Assembly: GCF_965363235.1 (NCBI RefSeq)
Contig: NC_134849.1
Span: 20,238,863-20,302,862, forward strand
Direction of reading: 5' to 3'
From: Mytilus galloprovincialis
Taxonomy: Eukaryota; Mollusca; Bivalvia; Mytilida; Mytilidae
Length of the DNA stretch: 64,000 nucleotides
Part shown: positions 17,357 through 49,589 of the stretch, one piece after another
How the letters are laid out: each line of letters starts with the position of its first letter
Numbering within the stretch: position 1 is the first letter of the stretch
Notes under the pieces: model-generated
Database searches by the model: none
Seen by the model: the letters and a program-made list of their open reading frames with translations, nothing else
Told to the model about the DNA's origin: nothing
Position numbers and translations under genes: made by a program

Positions 17357-20300
17357 GTATATGGACCCAATGAGGACAAACCAGTTTTTTATGAAATACT
17401 CCAAAGAGATATTGAAAATTTTGGTAATACTTCAGTAATAGTGGGGGGTGATTGGAATTTACCACAAAATTATGATATGGATACTAAACTATTTGCATAA
17501 AAATAATCCTAAAGCTCAAAAAAAGGTTAATGAAATGATGTCAGAAATAGATCTGGTTGATGTTTATAGGGAATTATACCCAGAAAAAAAGAGGTTTTCC
17601 TGGAGAGGACCTAACAAGAAGCAGGCAAGACTGGACTACTTCCTTGTCTCATTTGATTTTCAACCACTGATAACCTCGAGTGATATTGGTGTTGCATATA
17701 GGTCTGATCACTCACCCATATCTCTGTCCATTCAATTTAATACAAATGAAAAAGGCAAAGGGACGTGGAAATTTAACAATGCTTTATTATACGACAAAGA
17801 ATTTATTACTAATACTAAAACTTGTATTGCTGATTGTATTGATCAATATAAAATAGTTGATTCTGAAAATAGGGAAGAAATAGAATTTTCCATTTCCGAC
17901 CAACTGTTTTGGGAAACTTTAAAACTGATGATACGAGGAAAAACAATGATAAAAGGGAAGAAATTACACGTATTGAACTTCAGTTAAGGTCGCTCAGAGA
18001 ATCTAGAATAAAAGGGGCAATAATGAGATCAAAAGCTAAATGGCAAATTGAAGGGGAGAGAAGTACAAAATATTTCTGTAATCTAGAGAAAAGAAATTAT
18101 ATTGACAAAGTAATACAAAAATTAACTTTAGATAATGGTGAATTTATCACTGATCAAGCAAAAATTCGTGCGGAACAAAAGTTATATTATGAGAATCTAT
18201 ATTCATCTAAGAAAACACTTATAAATAATACACACCGAGCTAATTTCTTTTCTCTTGAAAACCCATTTATCAAAATTCTCTCTGATGAACAAAATATTAA
18301 TTTAGAGGGGGAACTAAAAAGCTCAGAAATTCATAATGCAATAAAAAATATGAAAAATGGAAAATCTCCTGGTCTGGATGGTTTTACAACTGAGTTTTAT
18401 ATTTTTTTTTGGCGCGACATTAATCCTTTCCTACTGCGTTCTTTCAAAGAAGCATTTCAAGAAGGTAAATTATCAATTTCACAAACACAAGGTGTTATCA
18501 CCTGTCCACCCAAAGATGGTAAACCAAAACATTTTCTAAAAAATTGGCGACCTATTTCATTACTTAATGTAGACTATAAAATAGTATCAACATGTATTGC
18601 AAATAGAATTAAAAAAGTCCTTGATCACCTGATTAGTGAAACTCAAACTGGCTTTATGAAAGGCAGATATATTGGTGAGTGTACAAGACTTATATATGAC
18701 CTCTTGAAAAAAGTAGATGACGAAGATATTCCTGGCTTGCTTGTCTTGTTGGACTTTGAAAAAGCCTTCGACTCTCTTGAGTGGAACTTTATATGTGAAA
18801 CCTTGAAATTTCTAGGTTTTTGGGACACAATAGTGAAATGGTTCACAACCCTTTACTACAATTCAAAAAGCTGCATTCAAAATAATGGCTATCTATCTGA
18901 TTTTTTTGTAATAGAGAGGGGGGTACGACAAGGGGATCCATTGTCTCCCTATCTTTTTATTTTATGTTTGGAACTGCTTAGTGCATCAATAAAATATGAC
19001 AACAACATTAATGGTATAAAGATTAAAAATTCTGAATTTTTACTCAGTCAGTATGCTGATGATTCGACTTTGATCCTGGATGATAGTGAAGAATCTCTCA
19101 ACAGTGCTCTAAATAAGATAGACTTGTTTTACTCATGCTCTGGTTTGAAGGCTAATTTTGAAAAAACCCAAGTTATATGGATTGGGGCAAAAAGGGGCTG
19201 TGGTGAGGAGCTAAACACAAATAAAACAATAATATGGAACCATTCAGGAAATTTCAAACTCCTAGGCATTCAATATTGTTTGTCAAAAGCTGATATATGT
19301 GTTGATAATTATTTAGAAAAAATTCAAAAAGTAAAAAATCTTTTAAGTGACTGGTCATTCAGAAATATTACTATATATGGGAAAATTGTAGTTGTGAAAA
19401 CTCTCGCCCTACCAATTCTAATTCAATGTTTTACTGTTTTACCAGATCCATCCCCAGATATATTAAAGCAGATACAATCTATGCTATACAGATTTGTGTG
19501 GGATGGTAAAGGGGACAAAATTAAAAGATATATACTTACCTCAAATTACGAGGATGGTGGTGTAAAAATGCCACATATTGAATCATTTATAAAATCACTT
19601 AAGTTATCCTGGGTTAAAAAAGTTTTAGACCCCACAAATTATTCCTCATGGAAGGTTCTATTGGCAGATCACCTTGAAATGAATGGTGGTGAAAATATGT
19701 GGCATTTATCAAAATCAGCACTCAATGAAATTAAAAAAGAATTTAACCCTTTTTGGCAAAATGTAATTTCATCATGGGCCTCATTGTGTGAGCCTCTGAC
19801 CACAGCCCCAAGTGATATCTTTTCTCAACCATTGTTTTTAAATGAAAATATTATGATTGATGGAAAAACAGCTTTTTATAAAAATTGGATACAGAATAAT
19901 GTATTTTTCATAAATGATCTCATTAAGGAAAATGGAGAATTTTACAATTATGATGAATTTATTAGAAATTATAATATAAAAACAACTTTCTTAGATTTCT
20001 ATGGACTAATCTTGGCACTACCAAAGGAATGGAAGAATGTCATTCATTCTCAAGTATTTATCAAACTAAATACTGTCAGTCACAAAATTGTTACCGCCAT
20101 TAAAACAGATGATAAAGTATCAAAACATTTGTATAAATTTTTTCTAGATAAAATAAAGGAAACCCCATCACTCATACAAGAGAAATGGAAAATGAAATTG
20201 GGAATAGATATTGTGGCCGAAGAATGGAATTATTTTTTAGTCTTCCTTTAATTATAACTGAAGATCCCACATTAAGGGCATTTCAATACAGATTACTCCA

Positions 20301-21058: not shown

Positions 21059-22028
21059 TTAACAATAAGACATCATTTTATTTGCTACAATTAGCTTTTC
21101 ATTCAAACCATAACGCAGATAAAGTTTATATACAGAACTTTTCCAGTCACCTTGAAGTTGAATTAAATCAGATGGTACACCACATTTGAAAGCCAACGTG
21201 GCACCACCCCTTCTAAAACTATGAGTTGAAAATTTACCTGCATCCAAGCCAATACTTGTAATGCATTTTTTCAAAAAGGCATTGAACATATTGTAAGTAA
21301 CTGGTTTTAAAACACCATTTTTTTTAACAACAAAAGCTGAGGCTGAGTCTGGAACAATAAATTTATCGCACATGGAAACATAGGCCGTAAAAGGACAAAG
21401 AGGAGAAGAAGTATTACTAATAAGAGGAATTTGCAAACTCCTTTCACCAAATTGTATAGTTTTGGACCAATTAAAATTTACAAGCAATATATTGTGTTTT
21501 ACAAAAATATCCTTTTTTTTTTAGACATTTCAACGGATCATCTGCGGTGCCTACCAAATTAGACTTCCGGCACATAAGAAAAAACCCAAACAAAAATAAA
21601 CACCAAAAAGTATGATGATTACTCTCCTCAAAATTTAAAATACTTTTAAACTGCAATAAAATATTCGGAGAAATGGGAAAGGCTGATTTAACTTCATGCG
21701 GATTTACTCTTTTTAAACCTTTAAAAAATAATTTAAAATAGAAAGAATTTAAATGCGGAAAATCTAAATCCAAATACAAATGAAGACATTTAACACCATT
21801 TACATAATTTCTAATCGAGTCAGTGCTATTAAATGACCGACTTAAAAACTGACAGTATAAACATATATTCTCTATTGAACAAGGTAAAGGCACTAATTCA
21901 TAAAAACTACAAAACAGAAAAAATGTTTTCCATTGTGTTTTCAAATTTTTTCTAGTACCAACTGCATAAGCACTATTTATTGAACATCTTGCTTCTCCTT
22001 TCAACCTGACTAAATCACCAATCACCAC
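21059..22028 (-). pseudogene. Tyrosine recombinase region of the Ngaro-like fossil
   Basis: The C-terminal part shows HSFRRGGAT (the H-x-x-R block of tyrosine recombinases), then LQGDWKS and a Tyr-containing end (YLRYGL). The N-terminal part carries an SAM-like core-binding region. Such enzymes insert the circular DNA of DIRS-order elements without target duplication. It is part of the broken element. Confidence 0.88.
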
Positions 22029-23780
22029 TCATGTTGAAACCTAAAAAGAAAATCGTTTATTTCAATTTCCTGAAAAAACTGTTTGTCGACAAGATTAAAA
22101 AATTCCGACTGATAAAAGGGAGACAAATCCCACCTAGATAACAAATCGGAAACTCTGTTATCTTTTCCATTCAAGTGAATCGCTTTAATTTCACACTCAT
22201 TTATAGCACAAATAAATGCAATTTCTCTTAAACAAGCTTGTAAAAACCTACTTCTCGAACATCCATGGTTTATGACTTGCACAGAAACGGCATTATCACA
22301 ATAAATGCAAATTTTCTTTCCCTTTCGAACCCACACTTTAAAACAAACGATCACCGTCAACACTTCCAAAGAATTAATATGCAAATTTTGTTTTATAATA
22401 AAACTTGGAAAAGCACAGTGGAAATACTGTGAAGATGAAATACCACCGCATCCGGACAAACATGCGTCACATGAGAAAAACTGATCTGGTTCTGTCCATT
22501 CTTCCAGACTTAAAATGGAAATACCATTAAAAATCAGTAAGAATTCTGACCGCCAGAAAATGTCCTTTTTGAATTCCTCCGATAATTCTAAACACTGATC
22601 ATCAGAAACAAATTCTCTCAAAAAATTTACAATTCTAGAAATGAATATTCTACCTGGTTTGACACAACTGGCTATGAAATTTAACTTTCCAATCAACGAT
22701 TGTACTTCTTTTCTGAACACCTTACTTTTAAACAACCAAGCATTAACCAAAGCCAAAATTTCAGTAAGCCTAGCAGGAGTAACTTCTAACGTCATTTTCT
22801 CCGTATCAAACCAGACACCTAGAAATGACATCCTGGAACATTGGGGGGGGGGGGGGGGGGGGGGGCAGGCTTTTTCAAGCGATTCCTCTAAACCACAATT
22901 GTCTAGCACCTGTTTTAAAATCTGAAATGAATTATCAGCTGTGTCTGGAGAGTCAGCGCCAGCAAAATCATCCAAATAATTAATGACTTCGACACCAAAC
23001 TTTTTAACAATATAAGACACTGCATTTGTGATTCTTTGACAAATATAAGCCGACGATTTCAAACCCATGGGCAATACTCTGTCCACAAAAATATGATTGC
23101 GCCAAGAAAAACCTACTAAATTGTAATCCTTGGGATCTAGCGGAAACTGTCTGTAAGCCCGGCGCAAATCGCGCTTAAAAATGTGACACTGTGGACCTTT
23201 CTTCTTGATAATCTCTACAAGTTTATCCACATTTGGATAATGTAAATCAACCTTATTTCCCAAATACTCATTTTTGTCAATGCAATCATTAACAGAATTA
23301 CCTTTGGGAAAACTAAGATCCATTATAACCCTTCTTTCCTCCGAATCAGCTTTTGGAACCGAATGGAGATAAAATAAAACCATCTCTAAAGGGATTACTT
23401 TTGAAAGGACCAAGAATAGCACCATACGAAGCTTCCTTCTTTATATATTTATCAATATCTTTAGAAAATTGTCGTGCACCAGCATGATTACGCACTTTCT
23501 TACAAGAAGGATTAATTCTATCAGCAAAATTAATACCTATTGGCCAACCAAACTCTAAAAATTCACAGACATCTTTGTCAAAACAACAAACTAATTGTTG
23601 TCTCCAAAAAGAAACATTTAACCTAGTGTATATAGGGATTCTCAAACTTTCATAATTATAACCCCTATAAGTCAATAAATCATTATGCAAATGTATCAAA
23701 TTTCCGACACTGCATTTATTGGATTCTATTGAATCAAAACATAAGTAGCAATGAATAAATAATGTTCTCAAAACTACCAA
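22022..23780 (-). pseudogene. Reverse transcriptase/RNase H region of the Ngaro-like fossil
   Basis: Recognisable blocks include RRVIMDLSFPKG, DLRRAYRQFPLDP, FVDRVLPMGLKSS, VINYLDDFAG (the YLDD catalytic box) and an RNase H-like part with FFSCDACLSG and IYCDNAVSV. The upstream stretch (YRGYNYESLRIP, FGWPIGI, HAGARQF) is the linker typically seen before DIRS-type reverse transcriptases. It is part of the broken element. Confidence 0.88.
22843..22865. repeat. Homopolymer G tract
   Basis: An uninterrupted G run of about 22 bases, probably length-polymorphic and error-prone in assembly. Comparable G or C runs occur near 30878 and 31128. Confidence 0.8.
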
Positions 23781-31600: not shown

Positions 31601-33062
31601 CGTAATAAAATAAAATAGAAATTGATTGAATTCCTAGATTGTACTGAACAACTTCACTCGCTCTGCTCTCAATACAATAATACACATCATATTGTTATAG
31701 GTGGCGATATAAATGAAAATATAATTGATAAAAGTGAATCAAAACGCTACGAGGCAGTCAGAGCATTAATGGATGACCACTACTTATATACAAAAGATCT
31801 GGGCCGAACATTCATAAACTATAAGCATGAAGAAATATCCTCTATTGACTACATATTTCTAGATAAAGAGCTATTTGAGAACAATTCCAGTTATCTTAAA
31901 CTTGACTCCTGTAGTTCTTTAGTCTCTGATCATTATCCTATAACCTGCAGACTAAATGTCAAAATAGAACATAGGCAACAAAGTACAAAAATATTGCCTA
32001 CTAATAGGAAAATTAAATGGAGTACTATTGACGTGAATCTATACGAGGAAAATGTTAACAAGTCACTAACAGCTATTTCAAGTGAGATTCAATCGGGTCA
32101 GGAGCTAACTAAAGTTATAACACAAGTTAATACCATTATGAAAAATGCAGCAATAGAATCAGCACCTAGAGCCAAGGTATACAACAGAAAGAAACAAAAT
32201 TCTAAGATAGGATCCTTTAAAACAAATCAAGCAAGTAAAAGATGTAAAGAAGCTTTTGCAAAATGGAAAGCAAATGAAAGACCAACATCACCGAACAACA
32301 AAATATACTGTGATATGAAATTTGCGAAATACGAACTTCGAAAAACATGTAGAATAGAGATAGCGATGAAAGTCCTCAACGATAGACAAGAAATTCTAGA
32401 TGCTAGAACTAAACATGATCAAGTATTTTACAAGTTGCTTGGTAAAAAAAAAAGGAAAGCTGAAGAATTGTATATCCGAACTGAATGTACAAGATAATAT
32501 ATATAAATCTGACAATGAAATTATAGTTGGATGGAAACAGCATTTCAATAAATTAGCTCAACCAGCAAATGATCCTGAATATGACGACGAATATTACAAA
32601 CAGCTAGCATTAGATCTAGACAATATAATTGATATATGTAACAATCAAACTAATACCATCTCTGTAACTGAAAAAGATGTTCAAGATGCCATAAATGGGT
32701 TGAAAATAAACAAATCTCCAGACATTTACAGCATATCCTCTGAAAATATCAAATATGGTGGTGATAAGCTGCAAACAGTTATAACAAATATGATAGTATC
32801 ATCATTCAAATTAGGAGTAATACCTGAAATACTCAAAATGGGTCTCCTCACTCCCGTATTCAACTAACTATAGAGGGATTACTATCATGCCAATACTGCT
32901 GAAACTAATTGAGTCTGTAGCAAAGGCTAAGGTCCAACCTAAAATATTGAAGGAACAAAATAGACTACAAAGAGGATTTACTGTGAACTCAGCTCCAATG
33001 AACTGCTCCTTCTTTATAGAAGAATTTATCAGAGAGTGCAGGGATGCTGGTAAAATAATATA

Positions 33063-34596
33063 TATGGGTCATTTTCAAAAAATGTCGAGTTTTGAAATTG
33101 AAAAAATTATTAAAAGTTACTTATTCAAACAACCCTCTACATAAGCAAATCATAACAAACAGTACTTTAAGAACAACATATTAAAAGATGCAATCTTAAT
33201 GATGTCATACAAGAATATGTTGAAACATTTTTTGATCGGTGGTACATTATTTTGTCTATCCTGTTACCATTTTCAAAAGAAATTTTGGGTTATTAAGAAA
33301 AGGTTTAGATAAAATGTTAAGCTTGTTTTACGTAGACAATTAGATGGTTTTCAAGAGAATAAACTTCTATATATATTCATTCTGTAATATAATAGATTAT
33401 TTGCCAATTTTCCAGGTTGTACTGAAAAATGCCTCTAAAAATTGGTTTTCAAAGGTTGTAAAAATTACCACCAGTAATGCAAGTCTAAGATAGCAATTTA
33501 TATTGTTTGGCATTTTTTCACCCTTTCAAATAAACCCAACATCAAGTAAATCCCTCATAAGTTAGTTTACTTTTCTCTATATTTCATTGGTAACAGGAAC
33601 GTACGTTTCTGATATATTACTATATAAAAGTCTATCCTGTTACCTTTTTGTCTATCCTGTTACCGATATCAGTATTGCACCTGCGAATGCTTGAATTGGG
33701 AAGATTAAGACGTTATAACCTTAAGATGACTTCAAACAACGAAATATTTCATTCGTTTTGCACCTATATGTTAAGATAAAAAAATTAACGACGTTTTTGT
33801 CTACAATTGTCTATGCTGTTACTGTAACCATAGCAACCATAGTAACAGGATAGACATAACAGGATAGACAAATTTCTTCGTTTTTGATTGCTGTTGTAAA
33901 ATAACTACTCCCTTTGGTGAAGTGATTATGTTTTTCTATTGTGAATTTGGTTTCCAACACGTTATTGCACTTTTTACAAATATACTGTTGGTGTATTTAA
34001 TCAAAATTGATGGTAACAGCATAGACATAAAAAAAAGTACGCTCTATTTTTTTCACTAAATGTCTTGAAATTTCTTTTCTCTACACTGTCGTTCAAGAAA
34101 CGAGGCGTTTTAAATGTAAAGATTACTTTGCACTTTTGAAATCAACACTGACTGATTCAATATTCATAGGGAGAATAAATTCACGGCTGTTTTAAGTAGC
34201 GGTAACAGGAAAGACATGAACCTCCTGTACGCAGATTCAATTTAGTTTGTAGATAATATGTTACATACAATGATATAGAAGCTACGAATTTTCGTTAGAG
34301 TAATATTTAACGTTCTTAAAAAGTCCCTTTTGTAGATATCAAGGCGATCAGAAAATCGCAAAAAAATCATTTGAAATGTGTTTTTCTGACACTGTACGCA
34401 GACAAATACCCCCAAAATGGGTCTTAAATGCAGTTTAATCTTATCAAAATAGATGCAAGGTGTGTTTATTATTAATGTTCTGAATCACAAATCCGACAAG
34501 CTTTCATTTAAACCATTACAACTGAAATTTCCATTAGAAATAAAAAAGTTAGCATGGGTGTACTGAAAATTCGACATTTTTTGAAAACGACCCATA
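33063..34596. mobile_element. Non-autonomous TA-duplicating element inside the LINE
   Basis: Ends TGGGTCATTTTCAAAAAATG (33065) and the inverse (ending GACCCA at 34594) match over about 30 bp. TA flanks both. Only a 2-bp duplication restores the LINE reading frame ...GKIIYIALLDAKSAFD..., which supports TA. The 1.53-kb interior has no transposase. It repeats the word TGTCTATCCTGTTACC forward at 33253, 33630, 33649 and 33809, and inverted at 33842, 33855, 34012 and 34201. TA duplication fits Tc1/mariner-like or other TA-targeting transposases; the family is not identified. Confidence 0.82.
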
Positions 34597-36233
34597 TAGC
34601 ACTTCTAGATGCTAAATCGGCATTTGATGTGGTATCGAGAGTATCCTAAGAAAGCTATACATAGCAGGGGTAGAGGGGCTACTATGGAAACTTATACATA
34701 GTCTTCACATGGACTCTAGCAGTGTAGTTAAATTTAATTGTCTAATATCTGAACCATTCTCAATATGTCAAGGCGTAAAACAAGGTGGTATACTGAGCGC
34801 CGACCTGTACAAGCTGTACATCAATAATCTCCTAACAGATATCGAGCACTCAGGATTGGGAGCAAAAATAGGATCCATTTGTTGCGCAGCTCCGACTTGT
34901 GCAGATGATGTGGCACTAATGAGCGCAACCCTGAGGAACTACAGGTACTTATTAACATGGCGTACAACTACAGTCGAAGGGAGAGATATAAGCTTCAACC
35001 AGTGAAGAGTGTTATTCTGCCAGTGTATCCAAATCGTAGAAAACAACAAGAACCTTCCTTTCCATGGAGTATAGGTAACTCAATAATGCCAATAGTTAGC
35101 CAAACAACCCATATGGGGGTCTTACGCACATCAAAACCAGATGATCCTAATCCGTTGTATGAAAACGTGAAAAAAGCTAGACGAGCCATGTACAGTTTAA
35201 TGCCAGCTGGTTTGCATGGGAAAAATGGACTGGACATACAATCCTTACTACATATATTTAACATCTATGTCATTCCTGTACTTCTGTACGGCCTGGAATT
35301 AGTAACTCCTACAGGAAAAAACTTGGATATTATTGACATATTCCACAAAAAATGCATTAAACAATTACTTTCTTTACCAACAAGTACAGCTACGCCCGCC
35401 ATATATATTCTTTCTGGACAACTACCAATAGAGGGCCAAATACATAAAAAGATTTTATCATTATTTGGAAATATATCTAGACAACCACAAAATAGTTTAG
35501 AAAAACAAATTGCATATAGACAACTACTTATGAAAACAGATGATAGTCACAGCTGGTTTATTATTGTTAAAACGATTCTAGCGAAATACAACTTACCATC
35601 CGCCTTATATCTATTAGACAGTCAAATTCAAAAATTAAAATGGAAGACCATGGTAAATAAAGAAGTATCAAAGTATTGGAAACATTTTATCGAGGGTCAT
35701 TGTAAGCTGTACCCCTCACTAAAGTATTTAAATAGTCAATATATACCAGGAAAGACACATGTATTAGTAAACCTATCTGCTAGTAATTCCATGCAAGAAG
35801 CTATGAGAATACCCGTAAAATTAAAAATAGCAACAGGAAGTTATATACTCATGGCTGACAGAACAAGGCATTCAAAAAACAAAGGACTATTGGCAACGTG
35901 TCCTTTGTGTCAAACATCAGATGAAACCTTGGAACATTTCTTACTACTTTGTCCTGCACTGTCGAACCAGAGAAAATCAATCTTAAGCAATATCCAACTG
36001 CTACACGAAAAGCTCAGTATTCAATTCAAACACAACGGTAGCGAAGTAGACCTTATCCAAGTAATAATTGATTCAAGTACAATTGGATTACTGGAACCCA
36101 GTTGTGACAATTTAATCCTAATTAATGGACATAGAATTTCAATCAAGGAGACTATGCTTTCTACTACACACAAGCAGGTCGAGAATTCTCAATGATATCG
36201 ATCCAAAATCAAGTTAGCTTAAAAGACACCGTT

Positions 36234-36504
36234 AGCGTGGGTTACGCCACACTCTACGGACACATCGATAAAGGAATCTCGACATTAATACAAAATGAGC
36301 GTGGATTTCGCCACACTTGTTAACTCAACCATAGTCTATAATGCCTTCTAAAGCGTGGATTTCGCCACACTTTACTGAAGATGCTAAATATATATCGTTA
36401 TCAGAGAATGAGCGTGGATCTCGCCACACTTTAATGAAACTATAATACTACAACTCAGCCCAATAAAGTCCTATGAAGCAGTAAGTGTGGGTACGTGGCC
36501 ACAC
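36234..36504 (+). repeat. Five hairpin repeats in the LINE 3' region
   Basis: The word agcgtgg-(attt or gtta)-cgccacac occurs at 36234, 36298, 36352 and 36411, with a variant at 36484. Each folds as GTGG/CCAC around a 5-6 base loop. Starts are 64, 54, 59 and 73 bases apart. They follow the stop codon of the last LINE frame. A role as a 3' RNA recognition structure for the element's own reverse transcriptase is an inference. Confidence 0.8.
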
Positions 36505-36807
36505 TACACTGTATACAGATAAAAGTTAACTATCCTAAATAAAACCAGCAAAGATGCAGAAGAACGATTTAAATTTATGCTGATCATATATATATATATA
36601 CATGTAAATAAACTGTAAATATCGAGGAAGTATTTTAAATTTTAAATTTCATGACGTTGAACTAGCTCATATTTTTATGCCGATACATGTGTATATACAA
36701 AACATTTTAAATATTCCTTTTAATGATGATAGATGTCTACCTGTGTGACTTTTATATTTTAAAGATTAAGATATATGTACTTTTGAACTGGTGGTGGAAT
36801 ACTCATT

Positions 36808-36815
36808 GATTGAGG
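36808..36815. repeat. MULE target-site duplication, left copy
   Basis: The word gattgagg occurs here and at 49129-49136, immediately outside the two inverted ends of the 12.3-kb element. Confidence 0.8.
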
Positions 36816-36823
36816 GAATTCAT

Positions 36824-37043
36824 GACAAGTCGCCCCACTGGCAAGTCGCCCCACTCCTAGTCGCCCCACTTTTTTACCAACTCGCCCTTCTTTAAAAAAA
36901 ACCGCCCCAACCTGGACCACCAACTCGCCCCACTTTTTAAAAAATCGCCCCACTTGTGAAATGTGTTAAATCCCGTTAATATTACTCCTGAAAACTCGCC
37001 CCACTGAATGGAAAACGATAAAATCTAGATTAACATATTATTA
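36824..37043. repeat. MULE left terminal inverted repeat, outer part
   Basis: The word CGCCCCACT or a close variant occurs eight times within 190 bp, with the frames aagtcgccccact and ccaactcgccccact. The order and spacers match the inverse of 48885-49121 closely. The repeat is interrupted at 37044 by a MITE and resumes at 38046. Confidence 0.88.
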
Positions 37044-38047
37044 CAGCTTTTACATTAATGCTAGCAAGACAAATTTTTGTTTGGCTTGCTTGCTTTGTTT
37101 GTATTAATGTTTGCTCAAGCATGGCAATTAAGATAGGCGGGGCTTCAGCTTGTATACATCATACTTAAATTTTATTGGACGTTATGTTTGAGGTTAAGGA
37201 CACCTAATCACATGACAAATATTCTCACATGTTTCCTCACCTGTAAAAACACAATAATTTGTCAATGAAAGAAAAATATAAACTTTTTTCTTGTATGGGG
37301 CTGAGAAACTGGCCTTCAGCATTGACCAAATATTGTTTTTTATAACATATCAATCTATTAGTTCAGTCAGTTATTTCCATGTCTGCCCTTCCATTATGTA
37401 ACTCAAGAAAATATTCAAAAAAATGGGAAACAATTGTATCGAAAAGAGGAAATCGAGTGTACATTTTTTATGTTAGGGTGTGTTTGAGATGAATATTTTG
37501 TTTTGAAAACGTACAAAGCAAGAGTATTTGATACATCATCTCGCTTCAGATTGTATCATTTTAATATAGAAAAGCTACAGGTTTACTTTATAACATTAAA
37601 AAAATCACAGTACTAAAAGATAAAATATAGGGGTGAAGTGAAATACAAATCCAATGGATCACAAAATCAGAGTAGGTTTGTTCGAATAGCTATTTTACTA
37701 AAAGTGCTTGACGACAGTCTTTAAGTTGGATATTTGAAAAAAAAATTGTCTTCCATTTCTACGATTGTGAAAATAAACTGGCGTAATGGGGAAATAGTTT
37801 CGACGAAGTAAAATCCTGTCTGTATTGTATATTTACAGGTAAGGAAACATTTGAGAATATGAGTCGTGGGATGTTTTAAAATTTAGTGTCCTTAACCTCA
37901 AACATAACGTCCAATAAAATTTAAGTATGATGTATACAAGCTGAAGCCCCGCCTATCTTTATTGCCATGCTTGAGAAAACACTGATACAAACAAAGCAAG
38001 CAAGCCAAACAAAGATTTGTCTTGCTAGCATTAATGTAAAAGCTGTA
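37042..38047. mobile_element. 1.0-kb MITE, TA duplication, copy 1
   Basis: Element 37044-38045 starts cagcttttacattaatgc and ends with the inverse; terminal inverted repeats are about 160-200 bp. TA flanks both ends. Sister repeats at 38168-38199 and 38300-38333 show the uninterrupted site attattaaccagg, so TA is the duplicated word. A second copy is at 53441-54481. TA plus a CAG start fits a Tc1/mariner-derived non-autonomous element. No transposase is present. Confidence 0.85.
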
Positions 38048-38600
38048 ACCAGGATGAATGTAGTAAAGCCAACTCGTCCCACTCATGGAAAAAGATGTTA
38101 TCCCGTAGTATATAACTTAAATTCCGTAAACATTACTCCTGCCAACTCGCCCCACTTATAGAAAACGATAATATCTATATTAATATATTATTAACCAGGA
38201 TGAATGTATTAATGCCAACTCGCCCCACTTATGGAAAAAGATGTTATTCCGTGAATATTACTCCTGCCAACTCGCCCCACTTGAAAGAAAACGATAATAT
38301 CTAGATTTATATTATATTATTAACCAGGATAAATGTAGTAATACCAACTCGCCCCACTTATGGAAAAAGATGTTATCCCGTTGTATATAAGTTAAATTCC
38401 GTAAATATTACTCCTGCCAACTCGCCCCACTTATTTGCTATCCCATTGAAAACCTTATAGAAACTTCTTATATTATTCCTTTTTTTAATATAGCAGTAAG
38501 AAGTGAGTATTAATATTTCGGTAACGTGAATGTCAACTAGCCCCACTTGTGAATAGTACAAGTATGAATAGAGTTAAAGGCTACATACTAGCCCCACTTA
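38046..38600. repeat. MULE left terminal repeat, inner tandem array
   Basis: Tandem units combine taaccaggatgaatgta, ccaactcgccccacttatgg, aaaaagatgttat and attactcctgccaactcgcc. Eight further ccaactcgccccactt words occur at 38069, 38141, 38215, 38264, 38344, 38416, 38533 and 38589, the last two eroded. The right end of the MULE has no array of this length, so the left end has expanded. Confidence 0.8.
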
Positions 38601-39229
38601 CGAATAAAATAATTAAACTGAAATGTGTGTTGGCTTCCACGACTGGACCGTTGACCCGACCACACTGGCGTAGTAGTCTGGTTGTTGATATGGAGCCTGC
38701 AATATACTGTTCCCACATGTTGAAAAGAATGGCCTGGTTAGTGCGGGCTTGCTTGCGCTTTTAGCGAGTAAGCTTACCCTCGGACACTAGCTTAATCTGG
38801 ATTGGTAGTAGTTGCGCTTCTTCGTGCAGTCTCTTGATGAGGGTATAGAATGCTGGCTTTTCGTCGTTGTTCTTCTTGTTGAGGCGTCTGTGCCAGCCTT
38901 CTACGTCGTTGTTGGTTCTTGTTGGTTGGTTGAATACGCACCACGTTGCTATTTGGTAGAACGCGCTGGTGATCCATGTCTTGCGGACATAACTGGTAAA
39001 CTTCTCAAGTGCTGGGTCAGTAACACGGCTGGTTAGCTCTCTAAATGTTGGCTCACTGTGACTAGCAGGTAACAATGGTAAGGCCATGATGTTACGGCAG
39101 AAAGAGAATACATCACCTCGTCTGTTGTAGGAGAACTGAAGAAAAAATTATGAAAATTAAGTCTGTGATATATATTCAAATTTACAAATCACAATCAAGT
39201 AATAGTATAAACTGATCTAATCAGCTTTA

Positions 39230-39350
39230 TGTCTCAAAAACAATTATCTCATAGACAATTATACCACATTTGCTTTTGATCTCATTGACAATTATACCCA
39301 ATTGCTTTTGATCTCATTGACAATTATACCACATTTGCTTTTCACATACC
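39230..39350. repeat. Three 34-bp tandem units in a MULE intron
   Basis: The unit tctcattgacaattatacc plus acatttgcttttga is present about three times (39247-39345). It occupies the interval where a catalytic-domain exon would be expected. Confidence 0.75.
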
Positions 39351-39482
39351 CTTCTCGAAATCGACTACTGCAACCTGCACAGCTGGACGTCGTGGCATAG
39401 AGGAAACTACAGCTGATAGTACCTAACAAAAGGAAACAATTCATTTAATATAGTAATATAAAAAAACAAAAACAAGATTATT

Positions 39483-39740
39483 ATTAAACAAATACATTAT
39501 TATTATTATTATTATTAAACAAATACATGATTAGTATTAAACAAATACATGATTACCATTAAACAAATACATGATGATTATTATTAAACAAATACATGAT
39601 TATTATTATTAAACAAATTATTTATACATGATTATTAATTATTAAACAAATACATGATTATTATCATTAAACAAATACATGATTATTATCATTAAACAAA
39701 TACATGATTATTATCATTAAACAAATACATGATTATTAAA
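39483..39740. repeat. Minisatellite, about 21-23 bp unit
   Basis: The unit aaacaaatacatgattatt recurs about ten times with variable ATT/ATC linkers inside the MULE intron between the third and second catalytic exons. Confidence 0.85.
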
Positions 39741-41774
39741 ATAATATATTTTTAAATAATAATTATTATTTACATGAATTAAACGAATAATTATCTAAAT
39801 AATAAAAATAATTTAAACTTACTGCTTTATAATCTCTGGTTAGCCTACGGCTCATCATGCAGAATGCCAAAGGAACCTGCTTAGTGCTACCACCACTGGT
39901 CAGGAAGGCGTGGATGGAAAACATCTGTGCAAAGGGGTTACGGACCACCTTGAACGTGCCGTCTAAATACCAGGACCTCGCTGTTGACAGAACTTTTAAC
40001 TGCTGGTCAGTGAAGAACACCAAGTGTCTGTAGAAGTCTACGTGGATGTCTTTTGCGGTAAACCCTGGAGGAACGAAGTTGTAGGCAAGCTGAAAGGAAA
40101 AAACAGGATTATTTTTTTATAACTTCATTTGACTTAACAACTTTATCAAAAACTACCTTGAACAAAAACTTTCACCTGAAACGGGACAGACGGATGGACA
40201 AGACAAATTTACTATATTTGCCTTTTTTTTTTTTTATCATATTCTAGTATATGAATGCTGCTCTCTTGGTTCAAAATATAACTATACAAAACTTACCTCA
40301 AAATATAAGTCGTGGGGTTCTTCTGGTCTAAGCTTCTGTCTGACTCTGTTACATGTACGAAGCAGGTTAGTCACTTTTGGACGGCTACCTTCTGGCAATT
40401 CTGGGTCAGCATGTTGCACATAGGCAGTGTCTACTATAGTTGAAGCTGGTTGGTGGATGTTGTTAACTGCTTGGTTTTTAACCTATAAATGAAAGGAATA
40501 TTTTATAATATTTTTTTTCGTATCAATTTCTGTTCCGTTTTTTAACAGCAACAACAGTAAACTATATGTTAAACAGCAAACTATGTTATATATACCAAGC
40601 AAACATTTTGAAATACCAAAACATTCATATTATTATTTCATTATCTTATATAAATACGGCAGTTAGTTGTCTCGTTTAAATTGTTTTACATTGTCATATC
40701 TAGGCCTTTTATAGCTGACTATAGCTAACTATGGGGTGACCTATAGTTGTTAACAATCATACCACAACTTGTCAGTGTTTGTATTTTGTATAAACTTACA
40801 TGTGCTGTCAACTGTACTGCTACTAATGTCCCAGGGAGAACTACATGGTTGTGGTTAGTCTTAATTGCCACCTGTGAAAGTATCACCCGTCTGCTTCACT
40901 GTTGCTGTACATGTCAGTGTCTTGTTACGTACTGTGCACTGCCAATCAGTTGAGGACTTGTTTTGACGCTGCAAAAAAAAAAAAAATCAAATTATCTCCT
41001 GTTTTATTGCATGACATTTTAACATTCAACAATAATAAATATTATTGTATAGCAATATAATATTTCCAACAGAAAGTAACCAAAAGTTAGCGTGCAATAA
41101 ATTCTAATATTAAATTCGTATATTTTAACAAATTTGATTTGTTTAGAGATAGTCACATGTTAAACTATATTTTCAAAGGTAGAGAAAAAACGGCGGATAG
41201 CAGAACGCATATTGACCTGCAAAAAGCATATTGCACGGTTATTTTTAGAATATCTAAAAACCAGTATACTTTGTGACGTCATGTAATGAATTTCAGGATA
41301 TTGTTTATCGTTTTGAAACACATGATATCTGTCACTGTGTATCATCGCCACCGGAAATTGGGTACTAACGAAGCGGAGAGAAATAGAAAAAAAAGTAAAC
41401 AAGTTAAGAATTCATTCAATTTAAAGCATTTCCACTCATTTGATGAGGGTGCCGATTAAGAAATGACTTTCTGATATATAATTCTTTAAATTATTAGGCC
41501 GATAAGTACAAAATTAATACAAGATTTTGTATAATACTCCAAAACTTGCCACTTAGTACCAAAAAATTTCGAGGTCGATCGCGTCCTCTGTCGCCCCATT
41601 CTCGAGATATTGAACTGTTTTTCATTATTTTTCCAGACACATTTTTAGATTATTATAGTGTGGCATCATATTTACTGAAATTTGTTGTCAAAAAGATGTA
41701 TTTTAAAGAATATGGACCATAAAAAAAATAAAGCGGTCTAGGGTACGGCAACTTGCTCGTGTTGACAAATTGGT

Positions 41775-41890
41775 ATCCGGTCGTTCCGGCCCCAAACCGA
41801 TCCGGCCCCAAGTCAATCCGGCCTAAAGTCGATCCGTCCCAAGTCGATCCGGCCCACGTCGATCCGGCCCCAAGTCGATCCGGCCCCATA
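41775..41890. repeat. GTCGATCCGGCCCCA minisatellite
   Basis: About seven units of 14-17 bp (41775-41888), strongly GC-rich within AT-rich surroundings. The minus-strand translation is a Gly/Asp/Arg-rich periodic string and is not taken as coding. Confidence 0.85.
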
Positions 41891-42551
41891 ATAAAATAAG
41901 AAATAACTTTATTGATCTTGAAGGAATTTGTGACACAGTATAAATGGAATTTGCAAAAAGTATTGGAGTACCAGTTAAAGAACTATTTTAAATCGATACG
42001 AAAATGATTGTTATTGTGTCGTTGGTTGTATAGTAGCTTCAACATATTTTAAAATATGAAGTTATTTTCCATTGATAACTTTAACTTTAACTCATGGCGA
42101 TTTCATTTTCTTTTTGTTCATACACAGAATATCTAAATAAATATTTACAGTCCACTGGAACCTATTAAATTTAACTCATCATAATGACTTGATTAATCAA
42201 ATCATTAGTCTATAATTGGTTTGTTTATTCAACAATTGTCTGATGATTGTGAACTAAGGTAATGCCACTTGTAATCACTTAATTAAATCAAATCCTGATT
42301 AATTGATCTTCTGGTTTAGGATTCAGATTCTGATTCAATAGTTTATTAAAGTCTCACCACATACAACATGATTAAAACAAGATACAATTATAAAATTAAT
42401 TATACAGTAAACATAGTTAAAACAATTAAATACATGTATGTGCCATTCTTAAAAGAATTATGAGAGACTATTAAAATACAAATAATACTTATTCGTTTTA
42501 TAAAATACTACAAATACAGTAGTTAATGATATAAAATACTGTTTCTCCTTG

Positions 42552-42790
42552 TTAAAATGTTATTGCAGGTTTTGGCAACAATATTACAAATATTGGTATT
42601 TTTAAACATATATATATAAATTTTTCTTCATCAGATAAGTTTAAAAACATATCATTATGACACAATATATCAATAAAAAGTGCACGTCTTAGATCTTCAT
42701 ACAAGGGACAATTTAAAAGTACATGTTTTTCATCCTCTAAAATATTACAGTTAAAACAGACTCTGTATGGCAACTTGTTTTCAACTGTAC
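42552..42790 (-). mobile_element. LINE 3' fragment (zinc-knuckle end)
   Basis: The minus frame YRVCFNCNILEDEKHVLLNC has the C-x2-C-x8-H-x4-C knuckle and following PLYEDLRRALF found at the C-terminus of many LINE polyproteins. Only this end is present; it ends at the inner side in non-coding DNA. Confidence 0.7.
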
Positions 42791-42871
42791 GGCAACTTGC
42801 TAATTTTAGAATAGTTTTTTACCGTCATTTCAAAGAAAATAAAGTATAAAGTTCAAATATCTAAGGTTGAA

Positions 42872-43900
42872 GGGGGGATGGGGGGATTACCCTTTTATGT
42901 TAAACTGTTTTTGTCCTTTTCAAGGTTTTAATTTGTTTAAAACTGTTATTTGACTGATTTTTAAAAACTGATAACTGTTTTCGACCCACTGTCTGTAATC
43001 TGTTTTGTTAAAATATGCAATGTTGTTAACTGTTTATTTGAAATTGAGATTCCTGTTATCTGTTACTTAATACTTAAAGTGTTCACTGTTTTTGACATTA
43101 TTTTCTCTGTTAACTGATCTTAACTGTTATTTACAAGAATCACATTAAAATCTGCTGTCCATCTCTTTCTTTACGTTGCTTCCGCAAAGGATTGACATAA
43201 ACAGCATATATGTAACTGTTCATGTCTTTAAAAAATCTTTGAGTATAGTAAATCCTTGATAAAATTGAAAATGGAAATGAGGAAAATGTCAAAGAAACAG
43301 AAGCCCGACCAAATAGAAGAAACAACCGAACGCAACGAGAAAATTATGCACTAGGGTGGGGCGTCAATTCACAGATAGGAAAAGAAACTTAGAATTGACA
43401 CTCATAATTTTTAAACACCCTCTTTCCCTTTCTTTCTAATAAATAAGGCTTACGCATTTGAGTTATGCATGTGTATATTTATGGAAAGAGAATCGTCCAT
43501 AGATTTGATTTCCAATAGTAATAATGGTGAAATATAATCTTTTTTTAACCATGGCAACATGCAAAATGGGGGTTGAACATGTCACAAAGATCTCAAAAAT
43601 TTGGTCCAACTGAGGAAAATTTCAATCAATAAGAGTGATACCTTTCCTGAAACCATAGACATATATCTATCAAAAGGTAAAAAAAATCATATGCATTTCT
43701 GCGACTTTGTACAGTGGTTTTCAAACTTTTGAATACATTCAAGATATGGACTTCCCCTTTTCATTGCTTTTGGGTTCGTTTGGAAAAAAGGATAAATTAA
43801 AGTTGCTGTTAACTCTTATCAGCATTTAAAATTTGTTGTTAACTGTTTTTGCCAAAATCGAGGTGTTGTTAACATGTTAACGGACCCCCTCCTCCCTCCT
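42872..43900. mobile_element. Larger relative of the GTTAAC-word element
   Basis: The ends are G-rich (42872-42886) and C-rich (43884-43900). The interior repeats ctgtt(a/t)actg and tgttaac many times (42905-43130, 43800-43880). It shares the block ccaaaatcgaggtgttgtta with the inverse of 6802-7004. A non-homologous stretch (about 43135-43790), with a SINE-like piece at 43264-43329, appears inserted. Confidence 0.55.
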
Positions 43901-44208
43901 ATCTAATTATGCATCTCCTATCTAATTATGCATTAGATAAAATGCATTATAGATAGAAACATCATTTGCTTGACAGAATTTTTAGAATTATACAAATTAT
44001 ATATTTTCAAAAAGAAACTGACAAGAAAATTAATTCGAAATGGAATTCACGATTTGTTTCTCCTTACTTTCGATGACAACAAAGTATTTTCTTATTTTTG
44101 TCTGTCCGAATTCACGATCCTGTGGTTCGGTGGTTGTCGTTGCTTCATCTCTATCTTATTTGTTGTTTTCATAAATTGTTTTGTTACACTGTATATGAGT
44201 TAGGCCGT

Positions 44209-44400
44209 TAGTTTTCTTGTTGAGTCCTTCCACATTTTTCTGTCGGTGCCTTTTATAGCCGATTATAAGGTACGAGTTTTCGTTGTTGAAGGCCGTACGA
44301 TAGCATATAATTGCTTGCATACACTTTATTTTATCCTGATGGATAGTTATCTTATTTGCTATCATACCACATATTACTGTTTTTATCTAAAAAAAAAAAA
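44209..44400 (-). repeat. Interspersed repeat copy, SINE-like family
   Basis: Words gttagttttcttgtt, gccttttatagccgatta, gttgttgaaggcc and atcataccacat appear in the same order as at 60470-60655, inverted relative to 2049-2165. It ends at a T/A-rich run. Confidence 0.65.
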
Positions 44401-44889
44401 AAAGCTAGCACCAACAAAAGATGAATGGACGGTTTATTTTATTGAACTTACACAATTTCAACCTAACAACAAATAAGACAACAGTCGTTAGTAGTATAAC
44501 GATATATAAATGTATTTAGGATAATATGGTTGAAAAAAAACTTTTTGTACAAAATCGAAAAGCGGTACGCAACGAGGCCTTCTGAACTGAATTAACGTCA
44601 TATATTTAATAATATTTGATTAGTAAGACATTTTGTATATTTGTAAGCCTGTAAAGCTTTAATATCCACAAAATATCGTCACTTAATATTATATAAACAG
44701 CAATTAATTTCCTCTTAAAATTATAATATATTGCAAGACGCCGTACAGACAAAAGTTGTTATTTTGCAATTCGCCGTACAACGTCCTGCAATTCGCCGTA
44801 CAACAAACAAACAATGTTTTTGTCCATATTATTTAAAAAACATGTTTTTGACAACAAATTTCAGTAAATATGATGCCACACTATAATAA

Positions 44890-45085
44890 AATAAAAACGT
44901 AGAATTGAGAATGGAAATGGGGAATGTGTCAAAGAGACAACAACCCGACCAAATAAAAAAACAACAGCAGAAGGTCACCAACAGGTCTTCAATGTAGCGA
45001 GAAATTCCCGCACCCGGAGGCGTCCTTCAGCTGGCCCCTAAACAAATATATACTAGTTCAGTGATAATGAACGTGTCTGGAAAAA
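44890..45085. repeat. Interspersed repeat copy within the right inverted arm
   Basis: The sequence from gaattgagaatggaaatggg to tactagttcagtgataatga matches 7378-7560. It interrupts the otherwise continuous inverted arm, so it arrived after the arms formed. Confidence 0.7.
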
Positions 45086-45598
45086 TAATGAAAAACAGTT
45101 CAATATCTCGAGAATGGGGCGACAGAGGATGATCGACCTCGAAATTTTCCGGTACTAAGTGGCAAGTTTTGGAGTATTACTCAAAATCTTGTATTATTTT
45201 GTATTTATCGGCCTAATAATTTAAAGAATTATATATCAGAAAATCATTTCTTAAGCGGCACCCTCATCACATGAGTGGAAATGGTTTAAATTGAATGAAT
45301 TCTTAACTTGTTTACTTTTTTTTCTATTTCTCTCCGCTTCGTTAGTACCCAATTTCCGGTGGCGATGATACAGTGTCTGTGATCGATTATTTGACGAAAA
45401 AAATCTTTAAATACATAAGATGTCAAAAAAAAAAAAAAGAGTAAACGTAATAACAACTAGTATCGACCTCAAACAAAGGCTATATTTGTATAATATTGCA
45501 CTAGTGCAATAAATCTTCAAAATTCATGACGTCATCAACGACAAAATCTTAGTTTAAACCAATTTTTACTTTTAAATATTATATTGCTATACAATAAA

Positions 45599-45721
45599 AG
45601 GGTTATTGCATGAATATTGGGGAATATTGTCCCTCGTAGAACATATATTGCACTCGCAAGCTCGTGCAATATAAAATTCTACTCGGGACAATATTCCCCA
45701 ATATTCATGCAATAACCCTAT
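45599..45721. repeat. Near-perfect 120-bp palindrome
   Basis: The arm agggttattgcatgaatatt continuing through ggggaatattgtccc (45599 on) is mirrored exactly at the other end, with a few mismatches near the centre (ttgcactcgcaagctcgtgcaa). The arms are about 60 bp with almost no spacer, so it can form a cruciform or hairpin. Confidence 0.85.
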
Positions 45722-46853
45722 ATTATCTTATAAAATGTTATCACATACATTGGTTTCTGGTGGTTACTTGTCTCATTGGCAATTATAGCAATCTGCCTAT
45801 TTACATTAGCAGCTCTTATTATAAATTAGAGTTTTAAATGTATTATAAATCAGATTGGTTTCTGATAGATACTTGTCTCAGTGGCAATTATAACATAATA
45901 TAATGTTTACTATTTTTAGTATAAAATAAAAGGGTTTACCCTAACGTTGTACGTGTAACCGTGGCTGTCCACAAGCTTACGCTTGCCACGCTGTGTAGCG
46001 GAATCAACTGTTGTGTAGGTGATGGTATCTGGAGCAATCTCAACGTTGTTGATGGACTCATCTAATATAGAGCTGTAAAAAAATGGATTATATAAATAAC
46101 TTTATTTTTTCAAGTCTGTCATTACTTTAAGCAAACCGGCAATACTGAACAGCACAATTACATGTAATATACGAATACATCCGGCAGAATACAATCTGAA
46201 GTTATTGGTATTAAAAATTTATTAAATATTATTGGAATTTTTAAAATAAACTTCTTATTTCTGCAGATTATAATCTTATCATAAATACATTATTCATGTA
46301 ATGATAATCGTATACACTGGACATTATATTAATGTAATATTTAAGGTAAAAAATACAATGCTTACACTTCAAGTTGAACAGTTGGCACCTCAAATGTTGA
46401 AGGACTGCTCTTGAAACACCTCTGTGTCATCTGGCTGTTGGTCTGAATCTGTTTGGTCTAGATGAACGGACTGGTCTGCAACGTCTGTCTGCGGTATAGA
46501 CTGATCATCTTGGGTTGGTGCTTCACATAGCGTACAGCGCCAACTTATAGACAGGTTACCCTTTGTAATTTCTCTGTAATGGGATCTGGTAATGCCTAAA
46601 TAAATAATAATATAGTAATGTTATTTTTAATCATGCTAGTAATAAATGTTAATGATTTATAAAAACTTTTTTCAAAAAACAATATTTTGGGTTGAACTTT
46701 TTTTTAATATCATTTTTATTTTTAATACAATATTCTTTATAGATTGGCTCTTGTTAACTTGTGTCTTGTCTGCTTAATTACTCTTTTTATTGTTATTTGC
46801 ATTATCGTAATATAGACACGTGCCTAATTATACTAAATTGGGTATCAGGCGTA

Positions 46854-46932
46854 GTACGATGCTGCCACCGGTCACAAGAATCACACTGCAGTGCCTCCTG
46901 TCTGGGACGCACGTGCACGTCACACACAACAC
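46854..46932 (-). repeat. Duplicate fragment of the MULE PHD exon
   Basis: 79 bases identical to 47970-48048, starting gtacgatgctgccaccggtc. The copy lacks the donor side and lies 1,116 bp away, beyond an intervening LINE fragment. Confidence 0.9.
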
Positions 46933-47169
46933 ATATATAATATTTATATTTGGATAAAATAGTAGCAAAATCATTTATTAAATGTTCCTGTCAAAATAGA
47001 ACACGTGCCGCATTACATCAATATATAGAATGAGATATAAAAAATAAACAGAAATTGAATAGATGGCACGTGCCATCGTATTATACACAAAGTCCTGTCA
47101 ATTAAGGATATGTTGAAAGGGTGGCACGTAACAAATGTTTTTATAAATAATATATAATAAGCTTTTGTA

Positions 47170-47713
47170 AATGCATGTAAATATTATTTATAGACCAATA
47201 GCAGTTTTGCCTTAGGTCTCAAAAATCATAGAACGACAGAAAGCTAATAGTTTGTATATATTTTTAAATAGTAATGATCTTCTTAATACTACAGTCAGGT
47301 TTCAGACCTAAAAATTCGTGTACTCCTGCACTTACTAAATTAGTAGATGAATGGTAAGAAAATATAGATAATGGAGAGATAAACGGAGTTATATTTTTAG
47401 ATTTAAAGAAAGCTTTTGATCTTGTTAGTCAAATAGTTTTATTGAAAAAAATTAATACTATAATGTTTCAAATTGTACACTAGACTGGTTTAATTCATAC
47501 TTGTTTGAACGAAGCCAACAAATAAAGGTCAATAACGTCATGTCTAATACTAAATGCATAAAAATGGGGGTACCACAAGGTTCTACCCTGGGCCTTCTGT
47601 TATTTATTTTATATATTAATGATTTACCACTTAATATAGAAAATTCATTAATAGATTTATATGCAGATGATTCTACATTACATTGTAAAGGTAATAATTT
47701 AATAATGTTTTAA
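47170..47713 (+). mobile_element. LINE reverse-transcriptase fragment
   Basis: The best frame (47501-47713) reads KMGVPQGSTLGLLLFILYIN (motif B region) and LYADDSTLHCKG (motif C, YADD). Upstream pieces with FRP, FLDLKKAFD-like and IIERQ words are broken by several frame changes. Both ends are lost. It lies between the two copies of the PHD exon fragment. Confidence 0.8.
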
Positions 47714-48884
47714 GTTTATTAGATAGGCGCTATAAAAATCCTTGTAATAAATATCTTTTAGAAATAGTTTATTTAAAGATATTTTTTAAATATTTATTTC
47801 TAGTTGGCGTTTAATGAATAATATTTAATGCTTTAACAATTTCATATTTATTAACATGAATGATAATCATATAAAAAAAACAATACTATGTAAGTTTCTA
47901 AAGCCGTAACCTCATCAGTACAATGTAAAGTAAATAAAGTATTACTATAAAGACTTACCAGAATTGCAAGTACGATGCTGCCACCGGTCACAAGAATCAC
48001 ACTGCAGTGCCTCCTGTCTGGGACGCACGTGCACGTCACACACAACACAATTTTTTTTTATTTTTTTATTTATTTTTTTCTATATAGCACTCAGATTGTT
48101 GTTGACTTTATAGAAAAAATAACGATCATATGTAAAACAATAGCACACAATTTAACAAAACAAAATATAAAAAGTAGCAGGTTATAAAAGATTTGAGTTA
48201 AGTTTAGCTGTGCATACATATGCTAAGAAAGAAGTCAAAGGATAGAGTCAAAAGTAGATTACAACTTAAATGTAATAAAATTCCTATAGCAAAAACACAT
48301 TTCAAACATCATTTCACCTATATTAAGGTCGATACTGATGGGTTTTTTTTGTCAACTTTCTCATCATTGTGCTTTTTTTTATATTTATATTTAAATTTTA
48401 TTTTTAACACACAACACAAGGATACACAGTAGACATAGTGAATGCATGTCAAAGGTTACTTTGCTTTTTATAATTTTAATACCAAGCCATAAATGTCTCA
48501 TTTTTGTTTGATTTCAAACCATAGACAAAACTTACCAATCAATTTGTCAACAACAACAAAACCTGTTTTGATTACTTTTACTAAAAAAAACACGACACAC
48601 GCTTATGGTAAATGAATGAATAGGCATTCTCTTTGATATTTACTTGAAAGAAACATTTGCCTTTCTCTGATTGCTCGTTAGTGTTGAATTATTCTAAATT
48701 CAGAGACAAAAGTAATCAATCTGGTAATTGCTATGATAACAAATTGCTGTTAATTGAAATCCGTTAAGTATTATGATATATTGCATTATGATACAATTAA
48801 CAGGTTTCTTTTCAATTGTTATGCAAATAACTAATCTTAAAAAAATACAGTTATTCTTCAATAATACGAAAATTTTTTTTAAGT

Positions 48885-49128
48885 GGGGCAGTTTTTATAT
48901 TTTAATTTTATATCTAAATATTACCGTTTTCCATTAAGTGGGGCGAGTTGGCAGGAGTAATATTAAACATGATTTAACCAATTTCACATGTGGGGCGATT
49001 TTTTAAAAAGTGGGGCGAGTTGGTGATCCAGGTTGGGCGTTTTTTTTTTTAAAGTGGGGCGAGTTGGTGAAAAAGTGGGGCGACTAGGTGTGGGGCGACT
49101 TGCCAGTGGGGCGACTTGTCCTGCTTCC
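48885..49128. repeat. MULE right terminal inverted repeat
   Basis: Contains about nine aagtggggcgagttgg-type words in inverse orientation to 36824-37010. The order, including the eroded ggttgggcgtttt (48030s of the pair: 49033) word, matches the left end, so the two ends are true homologues. It ends next to gattgagg at 49129-49136. Confidence 0.87.
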
Positions 49129-49136
49129 GATTGAGG
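49129..49136. repeat. MULE target-site duplication, right copy
   Basis: Exact repeat of gattgagg at 36808-36815. Confidence 0.8.
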
Positions 49137-49589
49137 TGCTCCTTTATTGGAGGAAGTTATGCAATACAAGTTACAAGATTGGTTAAAACATATTTACTGT
49201 CATTCGTTCCGATTGGGTAGTATTTTTTATAGTTTTTCGGCATTCAAAACTTTCGGATTTGTACTTAATATTAGGCCTGAAAGTTAGAGGTTATTCCGAT
49301 AACATAGTAAGTAACAGGTGCTACTGCATACATGTATTCTTTCATAACTCATGTTACATATGTTTTTTGTTATTTATGAACATATCATGACACAGGGACC
49401 TGATTAACATTTTTAAATTCCACTTATTAACTTCAAATGAAAAAAAATCTTCGCAAGAAAGATATTAAATAGTGGATATATATGCTGTTGTTGTTAGTCA
49501 TTAACATAATTTATATAGTCAGAATAAACATGATAAAATAATTCACTCAGGTCTAATTTATGTCATGTATGTAGGGAATAATGAATGAA

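Follow-up and report, generated by a model that had tools for sequence, protein, structure and literature searches.

What is a PHD finger doing at the head of a transposase gene in a mussel genome? The question is raised by a Mutator-like element (MULE) in a 64-kb stretch of Mytilus galloprovincialis DNA (C12:20238863-20302862), called the window below. The element occupies positions 36816-49128, with its gene on the minus strand, and measures 12,313 bp with its nested insertions; its ends are common to 13 other two-ended copies in the assembly that we searched (1.385 Gb in 331 contigs). An earlier note, made from the letters of the window, had described it as a MULE with inverted ends and minus-strand exons for a PHD finger, a FLYWCH finger and a DDE transposase. 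On the evidence gathered here it is very probably an inactivated copy of a MULE family with a three-module transposase, predicted to consist of an N-terminal PHD finger of Pygopus type, followed by a FLYWCH finger and then by a D-D-(C-x-H)-E core.

We placed the exon joins by eye on GT/AG. Read along the minus strand, the gene opens with exon 1, the first half of the PHD finger, which is in two pieces: a start-codon part (MSTVYPCVVC, 48407-48436) and a longer part ending at a GT donor (47959-48049). They are split by an insertion containing a T-run (48050-48406), which is absent in a sister copy and is flanked by a short direct repeat of about 12 bp that the last bases of the start-codon part overlap. 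Exon 2 (46390-46595, 3' boundary uncertain) holds the second half of the PHD finger and an acidic linker. Two FLYWCH exons follow, a (45943-46071) and b (40797-40950, with a frame break inside), then a linker exon (40297-40482) and three transposase exons with the first catalytic D (YLDGTF, 39823-40089), the second D (VVDFEK, 39348-39422) and the E (NNDVEGWH, 38761-39135). The FLYWCH finger thus lies N-terminal to the DDE region, and three catalytic blocks are visible: D (LDGTF), D (VVDFEK) and E (NNDVEGWH). The exon order and the D, D and E blocks are those that the earlier note had read, and its N-terminal C4HC3 finger is supported by the spliced pieces, which score 30.6 bits against a Pfam cut-off of 24 for PHD.

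This copy is, as its reading frames indicate, inactivated. Its damage comprises the insertion of about 356 bp in exon 1 (no match in Rfam up to E 0.1), the frame break in FLYWCH exon b, the loss of the C-x-H block between the second D and the E, which the sister copy retains, and a stop in the last exon that comes early compared with the sister copy. A second PHD half-exon at 46802-46990 was considered as the true N-terminus and rejected: in other copies the exon that has the start codon and the donor is the counterpart of 47959-48049 plus 48407-48436, and the half-exon is itself a partial repeat. Within it, at 46853-46933 on the minus strand in intron 1, the 81-bp core of the PHD exon (47969-48049) is repeated without a mismatch; the sequence differs on both sides of the two repeats. 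The same intron holds a reverse-transcriptase fragment (47200-47713; RVT_1, 34.4 bits), part of which occurs in two short copies of the element (47129-47366 and 47577-47763 in L036, 47367-48050 in L034), and which is therefore an old passenger. The 81-bp repeat is not supported as a target-site duplication of this fragment, since those short copies have parts of the fragment and the PHD core at one place only.

Is the PHD finger a regular part of such transposases? We searched the genome with the PHD exon (66 hits, 150 of 151 candidates scored) and with two DDE exons (30 and 95 hits). Seventeen PHD-exon hits lie within 12 kb of a DDE-exon hit, and in 16 of these pairs the PHD is the 5' partner and shares the strand of the DDE exon. 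Leaving out both hits in the window and the sister copy, the figure is 13 of 14, and random placement gives a mean of 0.13 co-locations and a maximum of 2 in 200 trials. The full PHD-FLYWCH-MULE exon order is found in three other families: family B (on C1 and C7), one at C6:89.66 Mb and one at C10:25.01 Mb, the last with stops. Family B clears all the cut-offs (PHD 32.0, FLYWCH 38.8 and MULE 44.7 bits). The C6 family has a MULE domain of 44.1 bits and a PHD of 23.8 bits, just below the cut-off; its FLYWCH exons, found by tblastn, have no Pfam FLYWCH match. In a tree with three Pygopus PHDs and five PHDs from open reading frames (ORFs) carrying an NPGP motif, the six MULE PHDs, drawn from five families, group together as a single clade (96/94). 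The alignment has 58 columns; 9 of the 11 inner branches are left open, and the program gave a warning about long branches. Over the first-half PHD exon of five families (10 pairs), the nonsynonymous divergence dN is 0.15-0.41, with the synonymous divergence dS saturated in 7 pairs and between 1.5 and 3.5 in the other 3. Low dN with mostly saturated dS makes purifying selection on the PHD exon across families the simplest reading of these alignments. Given three further families with this exon order, a single clade of PHD exons and low dN, the comparison indicates that chance fusion does not account for the PHD in the MULE gene.

Acquisition of gene fragments is known in MULEs (PMC6446971), and the PHD exon could be such a capture from a host gene or a retroelement, carried as cargo in the manner of Pack-MULEs and playing no working part in the transposase. 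Short copies that retain the PHD exon without the catalytic core would fit this, as would the similar PHDs that Pygopus and the NPGP-type ORFs of this genome carry. Yet cargo does not account well for a PHD that stands 5' in the same orientation in 13 of the 14 co-located loci outside the window family, for a constant exon order in four families, or for PHDs of a single clade with low dN. We therefore regard capture as very unlikely and keep to the three-module transposase.

Several observations weigh against that transposase model. The exon joins in the window copy are predictions from its sequence. Only the PHD clears its Pfam cut-off in this copy: the FLYWCH finger, read with an X at the frame break, scores 15.8 bits (cut-off 23.6), and the MULE domain (PF10551), with one block missing, 22.9 bits (cut-off 27.6). 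Of the 66 PHD-exon hits, 49 have no DDE-exon hit within 12 kb, and only some of these are short copies of the window family. Family D, whose PHD scores 23.6 bits, just below the cut-off, has at the one place read (on C14) a FLYWCH exon but no DDE exon in 9.7 kb. Lastly, two of the 14 two-ended copies of the window family depart from the expected duplication at the insertion site, one having no clear duplication and one a mismatched duplication of 9 bp. As a separate observation, family D counts nine loci (L038-L045 and L047) with a near-identical PHD exon (MSYPCVLCDQQVRPRQ...) and low divergence.

The other copies of the window family place the damaged gene in context. A search with the left 195 bases of the element (40 of 526 candidates scored, so that the counts are lower bounds) returned at least 41 matches of at least 168 bases that reach base 195 of the query, from ends of either side; at least 20 of these, the window included, cover all 195 bases. 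Of 14 two-ended copies examined, again with the window, 12 are bordered by exact target-site duplications (TSDs) of 8-9 bp, within the 8-11 bp expected of MULEs; two of the 12 have identical flanks, from a segmental duplication, so 11 are independent. A fifteenth copy was seen at its right end only. Copies other than the window's measure about 0.9-4.2 kb and mostly consist of its outer parts, several with PHD exon 1. The sister copy (C12:36744135-36748311, 4177 bp) has both ends, exon 1, the exon with the second D and the C-x-H block, and the last exon. The earlier note had staked its reading on finding further copies with the same ends and exons, and had named duplications of 8-9 bp among the checks; the sister and other copies have both ends and exons, and such duplications are the rule among them.

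The window element is the most complete copy found of its family. Elsewhere in the assembly the first-D exon reaches at most 55% identity (30 matches, all 78 candidates scored), and the last exon has one close copy, in the sister (98%), with a few others at 70-89% (150 of 242 candidates scored). Hence, no intact source of the family was found in the assembly. The earlier note had also called the insertion datable. Its place in a relative order can be given: the window copy has 7 private substitutions in 406 terminal bases, against 0-7 in 9 of the 12 other copies and 17, 28 and 33 in the remaining three (C12b, C6b and C9a), and it struck a repeat that already existed. A date cannot be read from the divergence of the terminal inverted repeats (TIRs). 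The left and right TIRs of the window copy are 89% identical, and we rejected this difference as a clock: left and right differ alike within 13 copies (79-93% identity), so the divergence is a family trait that predates the insertion.

The insertion itself is well defined. Exact 8-bp copies of GATTGAGG abut the element directly on both sides, at 36808-36815 and 49129-49136, exactly outside the ends as the earlier note had stated. We joined the flanks (36725-36815 and 49137-49217, with one GATTGAGG) into a 172-base empty-site query with its junction after base 91. At least 40 uninterrupted places match this query (40 of 79 candidates scored); all 40 listed cross the junction, and the best of them is 99% identical over query bases 1-134. 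The four empty sites read at the junction each hold a single GATTGAGG, so that the junction which the note had proposed as a check does carry the duplicated motif once. One empty site reproduces the window flank from 35212 to 49179 minus the transposon, with 98% identity over 1647 aligned bases. These sites are paralogous copies of the target repeat and not alleles of the window site. All four copies fetched depart from the window at about 49179, the end of the target repeat. Upstream, an ORF at 31619-32497 has an endonuclease match of 27.0 bits, just below the cut-off of 27.4, which is why the target repeat is probably a non-LTR retroelement whose 3' end hosts the MULE. The probable retroelement spans 31619-36195, its 3' part having taken the MULE, and repeats related to it are concentrated towards the ends of C3 and C5.

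The ends of the element are inverted and built of repeats, as the earlier note had observed. The arms 36821-36901/49043-49123 are 94% complementary and the arms 36891-36977/48966-49052 are 87% complementary. They belong to a left TIR region (36816-37043) with CGCCCCACT motifs and a right TIR region (48912-49128) with the motif inverted; across copies the TIRs are about 210 bp long. Subterminal tandem repeats with CGCCCCACT motifs (38046-38434), aligned with other copies, are common to the short ones. Exact CGCCCCACT occurs 16 times in the window, every time within the two end regions of the element. The outermost bases of the left end differ from those of the right and are nearly constant across copies.

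The 12.3 kb that the earlier note had given holds as a span but not as the size of the element, because about 1.4 kb of nested insertion is absent from the other copies and about 4 kb more is probably nested. At 37043-38046 lies a nested 1-kb TIR element (168-bp inverted arms, 96% identical; TA duplication by eye) that is absent from the other aligned copies. The larger piece, at 41338-45372 in an intron, is a probable nested inverted-repeat element, recognized from its arms (90-98%) and flanks, with no empty site; the arms enclose about 3 kb and the ends (CACTGTG.. / CACTGTA..) stand next to a possible 5-bp TCTGT repeat. These ends are tentatively likened to those of Transib-like elements. 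Inside it, a repeat with a minisatellite (41770-42320) is found again within or close to other PHD-exon loci (L048, L051, L052, L053 and partly L014), and is thus perhaps a nested piece of another PHD-MULE family.

How does this element compare with known MULEs? Repeat-built ends, part of the combination that the earlier note had thought less usual, are not new. The Tm1 Mutator/Foldback elements of root-knot nematodes, in the Phantom subclass (PMC3169594), also have composite TIRs of short tandem repeats, asymmetric outermost motifs, short copies resembling miniature inverted-repeat elements and a FLYWCH-MULE transposase, and their TSDs are of 8-10 bp, against 8-9 bp here. They differ in their single 496-aa transposase ORF, against many exons here, and the main text of that paper mentions no PHD (PMC3169594). 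Phantom MULEs in general are animal elements with TSDs of 8-10 bp, variable TIRs and, in some members, FLYWCH; PHD is not listed for them (PMC6446971), and we compared them with the window family by description. Of the groups compared from that listing, Rehavkus is the one credited with a PHD, Phantom and some others have FLYWCH, and the two mollusc groups are given no finger (PMC6446971).

Rehavkus, a PHD-bearing outgroup of MULEs, is thus the known group to which the window element might instead belong, and not to FLYWCH MULEs of the Phantom kind. By its description it shares with the element a PHD finger, long TIRs, a TSD (of 9 bp) and a MULE-like DDE (PMC6446971). However, it is listed with PHD and not with FLYWCH, has a minisatellite before the 3' TIR and is known from insects and annelids (PMC6446971), whereas the families described here have FLYWCH exons and a MULE domain recognized by Pfam. 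A possible match for the Rehavkus minisatellite is offered by the subterminal tandem repeats (38046-38434), which adjoin the TIR on the 3' side of the gene; the only minisatellite-like array noticed (about 41775-41901) sits in the probably nested part. We consider membership of Rehavkus unlikely, and favour a PHD-bearing variant of FLYWCH MULEs. The main texts of two further papers (PMC10294476, PMC10027918) contain no word starting with 'PHD', and we recognized no description of a PHD-FLYWCH MULE in the open-access literature searched. Within that literature, and leaving Repbase and other animal genomes aside, the variant is new.

The kinship of the finger may tell what it does. The closest solved chains are Pygopus PHDs, which fill the first nine rows of the PDB matches (2vpe and others; best E 6.6e-9) ahead of KMT2C (3.4e-4), and Pygopus also fills the first seven rows for the PHD of a sister family; the PDB holds no retroelement PHD to compete with them. 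Alignment scores of the window PHD are 104-114 to Pygopus and 95-116 to the PHDs of NPGP-type ORFs. Since these overlap, a direct derivation from the host Pygopus gene is not supported, and the alignments show the window PHD to be of a Pygopus/2A-retroelement type. Like the window PHD, Pygopus starts with VYPC-x2-C; unlike it, it belongs to a host Wnt cofactor and has its PHD in one exon in this genome. The PHDs of the NPGP-type ORFs are likewise of the Y/F-P-C type and similar in length, but they are unsplit and fall outside the MULE PHD clade. In most of the loci concerned (L077-L087) a Pygopus-like PHD directly follows the NPGP motif; the ORFs are probably those of 2A-bearing non-LTR retroelements.

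In human Pygo1 the pocket for dimethylated H3K4 (K4me2) is formed by W366, Y341, D352, V350 and A356 (PMC2726290). The alignment to Pygopus shows four of the five, W, Y, V and A, in the window PHD. W, V and A are conserved in all of families A to E. At the position of the pocket Tyr, families A and D have Tyr, C has Phe, E has His and B a non-aromatic residue. The finger may therefore contact the H3 tail. It speaks against such a role that the pocket Asp (D352) is replaced by Pro in the window PHD, which has an Asp at the E360 position. The PHD might instead be a protein-interaction module or a structural zinc finger that does not read histone methylation, all the more as a second surface of the Pygo PHD binds HD1 of BCL9 (PMC2726290), the pocket Asp is not kept and the pocket Tyr is non-aromatic in family B and His in family E. 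The retention of Trp, Val and Ala in all five families, and of Tyr in A and D, argues against this, given that binding by Pygo1 was lost with W366E and strongly reduced with V350E and A356E (PMC2726290). We hold a non-reading finger to be a serious possibility, if somewhat short of an even chance.

Chromatin-guided targeting by the PHD is plausible as a hypothesis. A comparable case is that of PiggyMac/piggyBac, where the cysteine-rich domain of a domesticated transposase, also a zinc finger, contacts the histone H3 tail; that domain belongs to an unrelated superfamily, is not a canonical PHD fold and is insensitive to the methylation state of the lysine (PMC8086355). The modest preference of Pygo1 for the dimethylated state is tied to D352 (PMC2726290), so a shift towards trimethylated lysine is conceivable in a PHD with Pro at this position. 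As a tentative idea, which we think rather doubtful as a whole, the MULE lineage could have gained a methyl-lysine-reading PHD once and kept it under selection in several families, steering transposition to H3K4-methylated chromatin, the lost Asp having shifted its preference from me2 to me3, the mark of active promoters.

A likely course of events follows from the three-module transposase. In intact ancestors the FLYWCH finger would have recognized the CGCCCCACT motifs repeated in the ends, the DDE core would have excised and joined the element by staggered cuts of 8-9 bp, the spacing seen in the duplications, and the PHD would have held the complex on the H3 tail, biasing target choice. The window copy landed in an existing repeat, which was probably a non-LTR retroelement at its 3' end, and produced the 8-bp duplication; other elements later hit it, and it suffered its coding damage. 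Short copies arise by internal deletion and would move in trans; as no intact source was found, that source may by now be lost, polymorphic or absent from the assembly.

Elsewhere in the window, the ORFs at 17873-20251, 21059-23440 and 11305-12528 include a reverse-transcriptase ORF (RVT_1, 120.6 bits), a minus-strand reverse-transcriptase ORF (50.4 bits) adjoining ORFs that resemble a tyrosine recombinase by eye, and an ORF for a leucine-rich-repeat protein; one of the recombinase-like ORFs (21062-21520) has no Pfam match.

It is poorly known how cut-and-paste transposons choose their targets in chromatin. A transposase lineage with a built-in candidate H3 reader of Pygopus type, present as several families in one genome, would make chromatin-guided DNA transposition testable, and PHD-FLYWCH MULEs would connect chromatin readers across host genes, retroelements and DNA transposons.

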